Shown piece after piece: positions 5,645 through 8,898 of a stretch of 64,000 nt of DNA; position 1 is the first letter of the stretch; the number at the start of each line of letters is the position of its first letter. The position numbers were made by a program, and so were the translations under genes. Source of the stretch: an uncultured Muribaculaceae bacterium (GTDB taxonomy: Bacteria > Bacteroidota > Bacteroidia > Bacteroidales > Muribaculaceae). The stretch lies in the NCBI GenBank assembly GCA_905233845.1, contig CAJOFH010000007.1, positions 15,212 through 79,211 of the forward strand. The letters are read 5' to 3'. The notes beneath the pieces were generated by a model. It saw only the letters and a program-made list of their open reading frames with translations, did no database searches and was not told the DNA's origin.

Positions 5645-7606
5645 TCAATTAGATTCAAACACATAGCCAAAACCTGTTCGGCTGACGATGTTTTGTGCGT
5701 ATGGCCCCAGTTTCTTGCGTAAGCGGGTTATGTTAACGTTGACAGTGCGATCAGATACTACAACTCCGGACCATACGCTGTCCATTAGTTGCTTGCGCGA
5801 GAGTACTTTACTACGGTTTGCAAGAAGCAGATGGAGCAGTGCAAACTCTGTTGGGGTAAGGCTTACAGGATTTCCATCAACTGTAATTGTCTTCTTGTCG
5901 AGGTTCATATTTAGTCCGTTATAGCTGATCAGACGTTTACCAAGACGGGCCTCAACAATATTCATCACATAGTCGCTAATCTTCTCGCATTCGGCCACTA
6001 TGTCATTGTAGAAAGTTCCAAGGGCATAGGAGAACTTGTTAGAATTGACTGCTATTATGGTGTCGGCCCTGAGTTGACTACGTAGCTCATTAATATCGCT
6101 TTCAATGGCGCGAGAGTCAGTTATCGAGATGTCTTTGTTGCGCCCGCTCACCACCACAATCATCTCGGCAATTGCCTCATTCACCAGTCGCAGCATGTCG
6201 TGCAGTCGCACATATTGCTCGGCTGTGAAATCCTCTTTGTGCTCCCGCAGATGACTCACTGTGCGACCTGTCTTGTAACAGGAGTCGCCTATAGACTCCA
6301 ACTCGCATATCTGACGCAGCATTACACGGGTCTTATCCTTTGTTTCGTCCGATAGGTGCTCATTGCCCACTAGCTCTAGATAGTTGGCTATCTCAATCTC
6401 CATATTGTCGGCAATGGTCTCATAGCGCTCGATACGGGCGTACTGGCTCTCAAACTCTTTCTTATCTCGCTCGTCGATAAGTGCACAGACCATACCAAAC
6501 ATACGGTGCATGCGCTCGGCAAAATGCACAATCTCCTTCTGCGCTTGCAGCACGGCTATCTCGGGAGTTTGTATCACACCTCTGCTGATGTAATGCACCG
6601 TAGTGGGCAGTTTGACTACAGATTTATTGTCGGGCAGAAGTTTGCATACGAGCCACTCCATCTGCGGTATCAGCCCTATGAGCAATGCGGTGTTGAGTAC
6701 ATTGAAACACGTGTGGAACATGGCTAGCACTACGGGGATGCGCACTACCTGACCTGTCTGCGATGGAAGAAAGCCCACAATGCTGCACACCATATCAACA
6801 AAGGGATAGAACACAGCGAGCATCCAGATGACGCCAAACACGTTGAAAAGCAGGTGGGCCAATGCAGCGCGTCGTGCCTCGATGCCTGCCCCCAGCGCTG
6901 CTAGATTGGCTGTGGTCGTAGTACCTATATTCTCGCCCATGACCAAAGCGATGCCCATATAGATGGGCAGCACGCCTGTGGAGCAAAGCAGGATGGTGAT
7001 GGCCATCACCGCTGCTGATGACTGCACGATACAGGTGATAATTGTACCTGCTGCCAGGAAAATCAGGATTGTGAGATAGCTGTCTGTGTCAAATGAGGCA
7101 AAGAAGTTGACAACATTAGCATTATGAGCCAGATCCATATCGCGCCCCACACTGCTCAACATGACTAGCGACCAGAACAGGAAGCCCAGTCCGAACAGCA
7201 GATCGCCTGCCACGCGATGACGCTTTTTGTAGATGAGCACCATACCTATGAGAAAGGCTGGAAACACCACAACCGTCAAGTCGAGATTGTAGCCTAGCGA
7301 CATAATCCATGCTGTGAGTGTGGTGCCAATGTTGGCACCCATAATAACCGATATGGCTTGAGCCAGCGTGAGCAACCCAGCTGATACAAACGAGACAGTC
7401 ATCACTGTGGTGGCCGACGATGACTGCACCGCACATGTCACAATCGTACCAGTTAGCATGCCCATGAAGCGGTTACCTGTCATTCGGGCCAATATGTTTC
7501 TCAAACTTGGTCCTGCCATCTTCTGCAAGGCATCGCTCATGGTCTTCATGCCATAGATAAGCAATGCCAGCGAGCCAAGCAATCTAAAAAACAATATTAT
7601 ATTCAT
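5645..7606 (-). CDS. Na/Pi cotransporter-PhoU protein fused to an OmpR/PhoB-type DNA-binding domain
   Basis: Residues 1-320 are a type II Na/phosphate cotransporter with its inverted duplication: QSSSATT (61-67) and QSSAAVM (195-201), GANIGTT (90-96) and GENIGTT (224-230), and about eight membrane segments. Residues 350-555 are a PhoU-like helical bundle. Residues 565-652 are a winged-helix effector domain: TPTEFALLHLLL (584-595), recognition helix DRTVNVNITRLRKKL (619-633) and wing RTGFGYVF (643-650). The first two parts are a standard bacterial pairing; the third is normally found in response regulators or in CadC/ToxR-type membrane activators. The reading frame is continuous with no sign of a frameshift. 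It is monocistronic with its own promoter. I infer phosphate transport or sensing coupled to gene control by a membrane-bound factor. Confidence 0.88.
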   Translation of the reverse strand: MNIILFFRLLGSLALLIYGMKTMSDALQKMAGPSLRNILARMTGNRFMGMLTGTIVTCAVQSSSATTVMTVSFVSAGLLTLAQAISVIMGANIGTTLTAWIMSLGYNLDLTVVVFPAFLIGMVLIYKKRHRVAGDLLFGLGFLFWSLVMLSSVGRDMDLAHNANVVNFFASFDTDSYLTILIFLAAGTIITCIVQSSAAVMAITILLCSTGVLPIYMGIALVMGENIGTTTTANLAALGAGIEARRAALAHLLFNVFGVIWMLAVFYPFVDMVCSIVGFLPSQTGQVVRIPVVLAMFHTCFNVLNTALLIGLIPQMEWLVCKLLPDNKSVVKLPTTVHYISRGVIQTPEIAVLQAQKEIVHFAERMHRMFGMVCALIDERDKKEFESQYARIERYETIADNMEIEIANYLELVGNEHLSDETKDKTRVMLRQICELESIGDSCYKTGRTVSHLREHKEDFTAEQYVRLHDMLRLVNEAIAEMIVVVSGRNKDISITDSRAIESDINELRSQLRADTIIAVNSNKFSYALGTFYNDIVAECEKISDYVMNIVEARLGKRLISYNGLNMNLDKKTITVDGNPVSLTPTEFALLHLLLANRSKVLSRKQLMDSVWSGVVVSDRTVNVNITRLRKKLGPYAQNIVSRTGFGYVFESN

Positions 7607-7629
7607 CTCTTTATGTTTTTATTGCGCTG

Positions 7630-7637
7630 CAAAGATA
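7630..7637 (-). promoter_or_regulatory. -7 element of the Na/Pi cotransporter fusion gene
   Basis: TATCTTTG on the minus strand, 24 bases upstream of the start codon at 7606. Confidence 0.65.
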
Positions 7638-7716
7638 CAAACAACAATATCATATGGACGATAGAATGCTGGTTACAATTTGGCTACATTTCTATTGGAC
7701 ACACTTGTTTTTATGT

Positions 7717-7754
7717 TTTTTGTGTAAAAAGTGAAAATTATGGTGCTTTTTGTG
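7717..7754 (+). promoter_or_regulatory. Spaced direct repeat upstream of the oxidoreductase operon
   Basis: TTTTTGTG occurs at 7717-7724 and again at 7747-7754, 30 bp apart (about three helical turns), upstream of the -7 element at 7780. It could be the binding site of the AraC protein encoded at the end of the operon. Confidence 0.4.
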
Positions 7755-7779
7755 AAACTTTTAAGTCAAAAAACAGTAG

Positions 7780-7787
7780 TAATTTTG
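7780..7787 (+). promoter_or_regulatory. -7 element of the oxidoreductase operon
   Basis: TAATTTTG followed by CAG, 29 bases before ATG 7817. No good -33 element sits at the usual distance, which suits an activator-dependent promoter. Confidence 0.6.
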
Positions 7788-7816
7788 CAGTGTCAAACTT
7801 TTAAAAGAGAATAACA

Positions 7817-8251
7817 ATGGATTTCAGAATGCAAGACCGCATGGAGTTGAAGGCTTTAGTAGATTTCTATGCAACCGAGAGTGATAAGAACAATCAGGAC
7901 TGCTACGTTGAGATTTTCCGCCCTGACATCAAGCTTGATGTTTACTTTGGTGAAACTCTGGGAATGCAGGCTCGCGACGTGCAGGACATGATTAAGCAGT
8001 ACAAAGCATTTGGCGCAGCCAAAGTGTCGTTCCACATGAATGGACAGCAGAACGTTGAGTTCGTTGACGAGACTCACGCCACAGGCACTTGTTATGCTTT
8101 GGCCACATTGGTGACTGAGCAGGAAGGTAAAGACGTGCTCACTACCCATGCAGTGCGTTACTATGACAAGTATGTGAAAATTGACGGCCGCTGGTGGATT
8201 AGCGAGCGTGAACAGCACTTCGAGTGGTCAACAAATCAAAGTTTAGGATAA
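7817..8251 (+). CDS. SnoaL-like (NTF2-fold) protein, first gene of the operon
   Basis: A 144-residue single-domain protein of the SnoaL-like/NTF2 fold: an N-terminal helix (RMELKALVDFYATESD), the pattern YVEIFRPDIKLDVYFG, and a C-terminal sheet ending in RYYDKYVKIDGRWWISERE. Members bind or isomerise small hydrophobic molecules, or act as enzymes such as polyketide cyclases. No signal peptide is seen, so it is cytoplasmic. The next gene begins 11 bases later. It leads an operon of reductases; the substrate cannot be told. Confidence 0.82.
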   Translation: MDFRMQDRMELKALVDFYATESDKNNQDCYVEIFRPDIKLDVYFGETLGMQARDVQDMIKQYKAFGAAKVSFHMNGQQNVEFVDETHATGTCYALATLVTEQEGKDVLTTHAVRYYDKYVKIDGRWWISEREQHFEWSTNQSLG

Positions 8252-8262
8252 AGAGTTTGACC

Positions 8263-8898
8263 ATGTTTAAGTCATTTAAGTATATTCTCGCATCAGTATT
8301 TTGTTTACTGATTTCGACGGCCTGCAATGGCAACAGTATAAGTGATAATACAACGCAAAACAATAATAAATCTATGGAAAATAAAGGTAAAGCATTAGTT
8401 GTGTTTTTCTCGCATGCGGGCGACAACTACGCAGTAGGTAACATCGAGGTGGGCAACACTAAAATCGTTGCCGACTACATAAGCGAAATCGCTGGTGCCG
8501 ACCAGTTTGAGATTGTAACTCACAAGTATGACGGTATGGCCTACACGCCACTAATCAACCTTGCTCAGGATGAGGCACGCAAAGGCGAGCTACCTCCATA
8601 CGAGGGCACCGATCCCGACTTGTCGCAGTACGACACCGTGTTCATTGGTGGACCAGTGTGGTGGGGCACCTATCCCCAGGTGATGTTCACCTTCTTCAAG
8701 AATCATGAAAATGACTTGAAAGGTAAGACTGTTATCCCATTCACAACCCATGAGGGTAGCGGACTTGCCAATTGTGTTGAGGACGTGAAAGAGGCTTTTC
8801 CTGGTGCTAATGTGACTAAGGGCTTCAGCATCTATGGCCACGATGTCCGTTCTGGAAAGAACAAGGTTGAGAAATGGCTCAAAGGCCTAGGTTTCTAA
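8263..8898 (+). CDS. Flavodoxin-type lipoprotein
   Basis: I start at ATG 8263 rather than the in-frame GTG at 8224, because the former gives a clean lipoprotein signal (MFKSFKYILASVFCLLISTAC) and avoids overlap. The mature part is a flavodoxin_4-type domain: KALVVFFSHAGDNYAVG for the FMN phosphate loop, then FIGGPVWWGTYPQVM and PFTTHEGSGLANC. Such proteins are common in Bacteroidales next to aldo/keto reductases. Being exported, it would work in the periplasm or at the membrane, unlike the cytoplasmic reductases that follow. It is a paralogue in fold of the flavodoxin half of the 2537 gene. Confidence 0.85.
   Translation: MFKSFKYILASVFCLLISTACNGNSISDNTTQNNNKSMENKGKALVVFFSHAGDNYAVGNIEVGNTKIVADYISEIAGADQFEIVTHKYDGMAYTPLINLAQDEARKGELPPYEGTDPDLSQYDTVFIGGPVWWGTYPQVMFTFFKNHENDLKGKTVIPFTTHEGSGLANCVEDVKEAFPGANVTKGFSIYGHDVRSGKNKVEKWLKGLGF

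Follow-up and report, generated by a model that had tools for sequence, protein, structure and literature searches.

How the state of a phosphate transporter is read out in bacteria such as E. coli is still an open question. In E. coli the signal passes from the transporter PstSCAB through PhoU to the kinase PhoR, then to the response regulator PhoB, and so to DNA. A gene in the window analyzed here (64,000 nucleotides from an uncultured Muribaculaceae bacterium; assembly GCA_905233845.1, contig CAJOFH010000007.1, positions 15,212 to 79,211) raises the question of whether a single protein could span that whole path: the original prediction placed a Na/Pi cotransporter, a PhoU domain, and a DNA-binding winged helix-turn-helix (wHTH) in one polypeptide. 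This was borne out, since the gene encodes 653 amino acids in one frame, with no break, and is laid out as follows.

5645..7606, minus strand: whole coding sequence of the NptA-PhoU-wHTH fusion, 653 aa in one frame (open reading frame and relatives)
6632..7606, minus strand: Na/Pi cotransporter membrane part, residues 1-325, with QSSS (61-64) and QSSA (195-198) (PF02690, TIGR00704, motif counts)
5942..6580, minus strand: PhoU-type helical bundle, residues 343-555, with E-x3-D motifs E396-D400, E437-D441, and E541-D545
5648..5941, minus strand: PhoB-type wHTH, residues 556-653
5690..5752, minus strand: modelled helix 619-639, containing the recognition helix (structure model and residue conservation in lineage A, defined below)

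Two stretches of the protein matched the Pfam family PF02690 (Na_Pi_cotrans), and TIGR00704 scored 216 bits against a cutoff of 210.1. The Pfam PhoU family, PF01895, fell just short of its gathering score in the window protein (23.2 versus 23.5) and reached 32.6 in L077; a helical bundle of the PhoU fold is present, and E/D-x3-D motifs are characteristic of PhoU. The C-terminal part is a winged-helix effector domain of the OmpR/PhoB kind, with a fold match to PhoB in complex with DNA and to the isolated PhoB effector domain. It lies C-terminal to the seven hydrophobic stretches of the transporter part, and a DNA-binding-type domain and membrane segments form one chain. No receiver domain (PF00072) and no kinase output domain (HisKA or HATPase) was matched by Pfam in the window protein, and NF053854 gave 108.8 bits versus 270, with the match confined to the tail; lacking a receiver, the fusion would have no phosphorylation switch. 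In a structure model (pTM 0.47, in which the relative placement of the domains is not resolved) there is almost no linker, the last PhoU helix stopping at residue 555 and the first wHTH strand starting at 559, and the junction is free of gaps in an alignment of eight proteins.

The PhoU-wHTH junction was found in at least 57 genomes, of which 53 encode a near full-length protein, one is truncated where its contig stops (L112), and three have the PhoU-wHTH end alone; the fusion is thus not confined to this genome, which was the check proposed with the original prediction. Seven of 101 genomes of the window's genus have it. A sample of the order (393 genomes) yielded the window's own genome and one from another family, G621, and a scan with one genome per species gave 80 listed loci, 53 with the junction and 27 that are separate response regulators; four of these 53 scan genomes were already counted in the genus and order sets, and 57 is a lower bound. 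No further fusion was found in a sample of the phylum (395 genomes) queried with the fusion tail at an E value of 1e-25 or better: among six matches only the window's own spans the junction, and the other five are separate response regulators. Strain-named records that carry the fusion, which are taken to be isolates, include Prevotella aff. ruminicola Tc2-24, P. ruminicola KHT3, Prevotella khp7, Prevotellaceae HUN156 and MN60, and Bacteroidales KHT7. A ruminant host is named in the titles of 15 of the 53 scan records, and about 25 more have RUG or RUI names, which we take to denote rumen genome series. At most six fusion loci have any neighbor in common within 4 kb, and these belong to a single subclade, so that genomic context points to no partner.

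The set of 53 near full-length ORFs comprises all of these loci but L093, L112, L130, and L135. At L093 (7920-8462), L130 (7620-8486), and L135 (7947-8357) the PhoU-wHTH end has no membrane part upstream; gene breakage, faulty assembly, or a soluble form of the protein may account for this, and a PhoU-wHTH end without its transporter may be working or decaying.

A likely source of the fusion is suggested by its relatives. At 12 non-fused loci, nptA is followed on the same strand by a phoB-like response regulator gene and a short kinase gene, and nptA stops where the fusion joins. The regulators exceed the PhoB cutoff at eight loci of the genus and have a receiver and a wHTH by BLAST at the other four; the kinases have HisKA and HATPase domains by Pfam in five cases, the rest being assigned by BLAST or sequence. 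By a hydropathy script, two predicted membrane helices lie 15 to 18 residues apart in 11 of the 12 clustered kinases (L080 differs), compared with 132 to 140 residues in four PhoR proteins, an arrangement in which the PhoU-bearing transporter might act as the kinases' sensor. Kinases predicted to have almost no periplasmic part adjoin nptA-phoB at L079 (8518-9441), L085 (5891-6814), and L091 (7557-8477), and at similar loci. No regulator-kinase pair follows nptA at the non-fused loci L082, L088, and L089. The flanks of the fusion loci examined, some of them short, contain no PhoB-type regulator with a kinase alongside, and the protein has no receiver, in keeping with the original proposal of a link that dispenses with both kinase and response regulator. 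Most likely the fusion descends from an nptA-phoB-kinase cluster in which nptA was joined to the wHTH and the receiver and kinase disappeared. Intermediate steps seem to survive among the relatives, from PhoR with a periplasmic part, through a short kinase beside nptA, to no kinase.

Fusions fall into two lineages, A and B. In a transporter tree of 47 rows, which excludes L089 (long branch), L133 (after its odd placement was seen), and 20 near relatives, A and B are apart, and B lies beside a clustered nptA (support 100/98); a single clade of all fusions was rejected, with a log-likelihood 90 lower and an AU p of 9e-57. The wHTH tree (99 columns) does not separate them (AU p 0.446), and its bootstrap is not settled. 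Lineage B, with eight loci and a wHTH more divergent than that of A, differs from A by a junction two residues longer and by a retained loop residue, lost in A, as seen in the 16 of 53 fusion ends displayed. A single origin is thus rejected by the transporter tree but not by the wHTH tree, and the two lineages have different junctions; the fusion probably arose twice. A third origin, considered for L133, was dropped when a split alignment revealed a chimera, in which the membrane part of another nptA lineage sits on a lineage-A PhoU-wHTH end (6450-8471). The fusions of G621 (L128, G621:C36) and L114, both labelled as other families, are nested within lineage A, which suggests transfer between families, and horizontal transfer of the fusion to both is probable.

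Purifying selection acts on each of the three parts: for 17 pairs of related fusion genes, chosen from a set of 50 (L110, L117, and L138 having been dropped by a start-motif filter), pooled pN/pS was 0.09 in the transporter, 0.13 in PhoU, and 0.16 in the wHTH. Residues 61-64 read QSSS in lineage A (44/45 proteins, the other having QSST) and QSSA in 8/8 of lineage B, residues 195-198 read QSSA in all 53 fusion proteins, and ELES(I/V)GD occupies positions 435-441 in 45/45 and 8/8 proteins, respectively. In the wHTH, R628, R630, K631, K632, W612, G634, and Y648 are invariant in 43/43 lineage-A proteins, and R620 is found in 41/43. The tail seems not to be a relic.

A PHO box consists of 7-bp direct repeats with an 11-bp period, before a promoter. 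A PHO-box-like repeat before the fusion gene, in genomes with no PhoB above the cutoff, is what a DNA-binding transporter would predict, and the region upstream of the gene contains two elements that bear on this.

7671..7688, minus strand: PHO-box-like direct repeat TGTAGCC-AAAT-TGTAACC, 11-bp period, upstream of the fusion gene, 13/14 consensus positions
7630..7637, minus strand: TATCTTTG (TAnnTTTG), which we take to be a Bacteroidetes-type -7 element, 51 bp after the box start

Upstream regions matched TGTAACC-N4-TGTAACC at 11/14 or better in 40 of 43 cases in lineage A (all but L105, L133, and L144), versus 21 of 2,150 order-1 random sequences. TAnnTTTG lies 49 to 51 bp past the box start in 36 of these 40 regions and is absent there in four. 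No box was found in the seven lineage-B upstream regions examined, where the wHTH is also more divergent, and autoregulation is therefore argued for lineage A only. Among the non-fused relatives, a weaker box (at least 10/14) precedes 12/12 clustered nptA genes and 11/14 phoB genes; we treat this as supportive only, because random sequence already reaches 10 in 6% of stretches of 200 bp, and the regions scored were longer, at 360 bp.

Genome-wide scans placed the box mainly at the fusion's own promoter. In the window's genome that promoter is the sole zero-mismatch match to TGTARCCN4TGTAAYC and the only site with the strict pair of box and -7 element; matches with one mismatch numbered two, which is the chance level (three in the reversed control). 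Box plus -7 gave 11 matches in 22 genomes, versus one in the reversed control: six fusion promoters, three clustered nptA genes, one nptA whose next part is inverted (G194), and one site in G219. Across 39 fusion genomes there were 31 matches, 26 of them at the genome's own fusion promoter, and 10 in the reversed control; the other five lie at a clustered nptA (G095), at the G219 site, at a truncated nptA-like ORF (G1034), and in G1033 and G1023, where they look like chance. These 39 were a chosen list from the 57, which leaves aside lineage B, L105, L114, L128, L144, and others. By the strict pattern, 13 of these 39 genomes have no match at the promoter of their own fusion gene, so that other targets would be overlooked as well. 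The G219 site (L211, 990-1430, minus strand, G219:C11) precedes a small ORF, PepSY-like by look, upstream of phoB and a kinase gene.

PhoB itself is scarce where the fusion occurs. A protein above the curated PhoB cutoff was found in 5 of 50 fusion genomes, compared with 51 of 94 non-fusion genomes of the genus (Fisher p 9e-8, for two sets that were sampled in different ways and share ancestry, completeness not being given for 43 of the fusion genomes). Within the genus, 53 of 101 genomes are above the cutoff, two of them with the fusion, and the further fusion genomes contribute 3/43; the 50 covered, out of 57, are the seven fusion genomes of the genus and a chosen list of 43, without L093, L112, L125, L127, L130, L135, and L137. 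In the fusion genome of L138 a PhoB scores 263.6 bits and so falls just short of the cutoff of 270, and 43 of the 94 non-fusion genus genomes also have no PhoB above it. The window's genome has no PhoB above the cutoff, its only other Trans_reg_C protein being a distant regulator that adjoins a 499-aa kinase. No PstB above the cutoff was found in 12 genomes, seven of them genus fusion genomes, G621 scoring 314.8 bits versus 343.2, so that PstB is possible there. On sequence grounds, the best reading is that the fusion has largely replaced PhoBR. Partial PhoB-like pieces, receiver-only or with stops, were seen in the genomes of L094, L100, and L133 (G1017:C63, G1023:C70, G1049:C9) and may be decaying phoB genes or contig ends.

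Beyond what the sequence establishes (the fusion, its conservation and selection, the absent receiver, the lineage-A promoter repeat, and the scarcity of PhoB), we infer DNA binding, transport, and a response to phosphate, and put at roughly 70% the reading that the fusion is a membrane-tethered transcription factor that regulates itself with the Na/Pi transporter as its sensor. The NptA part would move phosphate, and the PhoU bundle below it would sense the state of the transporter or of phosphate. The wHTH, joined directly to the last PhoU helix, would bind the 11-bp direct repeat in front of its own promoter. Under phosphate scarcity, the PhoU part would release the wHTH, and two copies, arranged head to tail on the repeat in the manner of PhoB, would turn the gene on; at high phosphate flux the wHTH would be held back. 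Sensor, actuator, and regulator would then be a single chain that acts mainly on one promoter, which a membrane protein synthesized next to its gene would be well placed to reach. We lean, if only slightly, toward the fuller account of a phosphate homeostat made of one protein and one promoter, in which the state of the transporter sets activation of its own gene with no kinase or phosphorelay. On this account, two-component systems would have collapsed into such a design on two or more occasions, and the design would have passed from family to family in the ruminant gut and displaced PhoBR.

Other explanations account for parts of these data. Assembly or sequencing error could have joined two genes in one frame, and many of the fusion genomes are metagenome assemblies; however, 53 near full-length ORFs come each from its own genome, strain-named records such as KHT3 and Tc2-24 among them, and the junction, gap-free in the eight aligned proteins, is alike within each lineage in the 16 displayed. 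Because independent assemblies carry the fusion, an artefact is excluded for practical purposes, and with it the frameshift that the original prediction had set against itself. The wHTH might instead have lost DNA binding and persist as a leftover, or as a structural piece of the PhoU domain; it is, after all, inherited from a response regulator, and the recognition helix is altered in some lineage-B copies. A dead domain is nevertheless very improbable given a pN/pS of 0.16, the four basic residues R628, R630, K631, and K632 unchanged in 43/43 lineage-A proteins, and a box retained where no PhoB exceeds the cutoff.

Proteolytic release is known for other membrane regulators, and a protease might free PhoU-wHTH or the wHTH as a soluble factor, the transporter being a store only. 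That the wHTH is a complete domain, matching the isolated PhoB effector domain, and that three loci have the PhoU-wHTH end alone would fit such cleavage, but there is hardly any linker in which to cut (555 to 559 in the model) and no gap at the junction, and a target at its own gene should require no release, since the gene could approach the membrane while its product is being made; we regard cleavage as unlikely. A little less likely still is a repressor, whose wHTH would bind the box and lower its own synthesis when phosphate is plentiful. The position of the box by itself leaves the sign undecided, and lineage A has one residue fewer in the loop just ahead of the recognition helix, a loop that contacts sigma in PhoB. 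Against repression, some 50 bp separate the start of the box from the -7 element downstream, an activator-like position, and the nptA-phoB clusters of the relatives have a comparable though weaker box ahead of them; PhoB-type regulators are usually activators and would be expected to activate there.

Self-activation by a tethered transporter, the reading we prefer, combines features of several known systems. Like NptA Na/Pi cotransporters with a PhoU tail (TIGR00704, PF02690), the fusion has membrane repeats, QSSS motifs, and a PhoU bundle, but those transporters stop at the PhoU domain, with no DNA-binding domain, whereas the fusion continues into the wHTH. With PhoB it shares the wHTH fold, the basic recognition helix, and the 11-bp direct repeat; unlike PhoB it has no receiver and is tethered to a transporter. 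As proposed here, transporter state would pass via PhoU to a PhoB-type wHTH, as in the Pst-Pho system of E. coli, which however uses several proteins and a phosphorelay in place of one chain. CadC and ToxR have an N-terminal wHTH, a single membrane helix, and a periplasmic sensor; the fusion differs in its C-terminal wHTH and in its putative sensor, a multi-pass transporter. Transmembrane transcription regulators of this kind (surveyed in PMC10269533) have a DNA-binding domain and a membrane part in one chain, as does the fusion. In Ks-Amt5 (PMC5764959) and CbrA (PMC7096432, PMC13022988), which are transporter-histidine kinase receptors, a transporter domain is likewise fused to a signaling output, but that output is a histidine kinase that requires a response regulator, whereas in the fusion it is the DNA-binding domain itself. 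The original prediction knew of no described member of the architecture, and this agrees with what was found here: among the matches listed from open-licence papers, there was no description under cotransporters combined with PhoU and a DNA-binding domain, transporter-regulator fusions, the Pho regulon of Bacteroidetes or Prevotella, transceptors, membrane-bound transcription factors, or PhoU with AbrB. Three points go beyond the original prediction: the likely descent from an nptA-phoB-kinase cluster, a second fusion event, which is probable, and a seeming concentration of the fusion's action on its own promoter.

In some gut relatives of Prevotella, many of them ruminant derived, one protein may thus sense phosphate, carry it, and set its own production. 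The signal chain is seemingly reduced to one polypeptide, with its own promoter as the clearest target, and a link between transport and transcription could be tested here with one gene and one promoter. With its probable repeated origin and the scarcity of PhoB around it, the fusion would serve as a natural example of one-component regulation taking the place of a two-component system.

Incomplete or rearranged nptA sequences were also seen. At L202 (1594-2280, G194:C48) the start of nptA is on one strand and the next part is inverted on the other, either a rearrangement or an assembly fault. At L233 (about 1321-1560, G1034:C77), four consecutive 11-bp repeats precede the truncated nptA-like ORF, of 114 aa, and a wHTH-like piece adjoins that ORF on the other strand.
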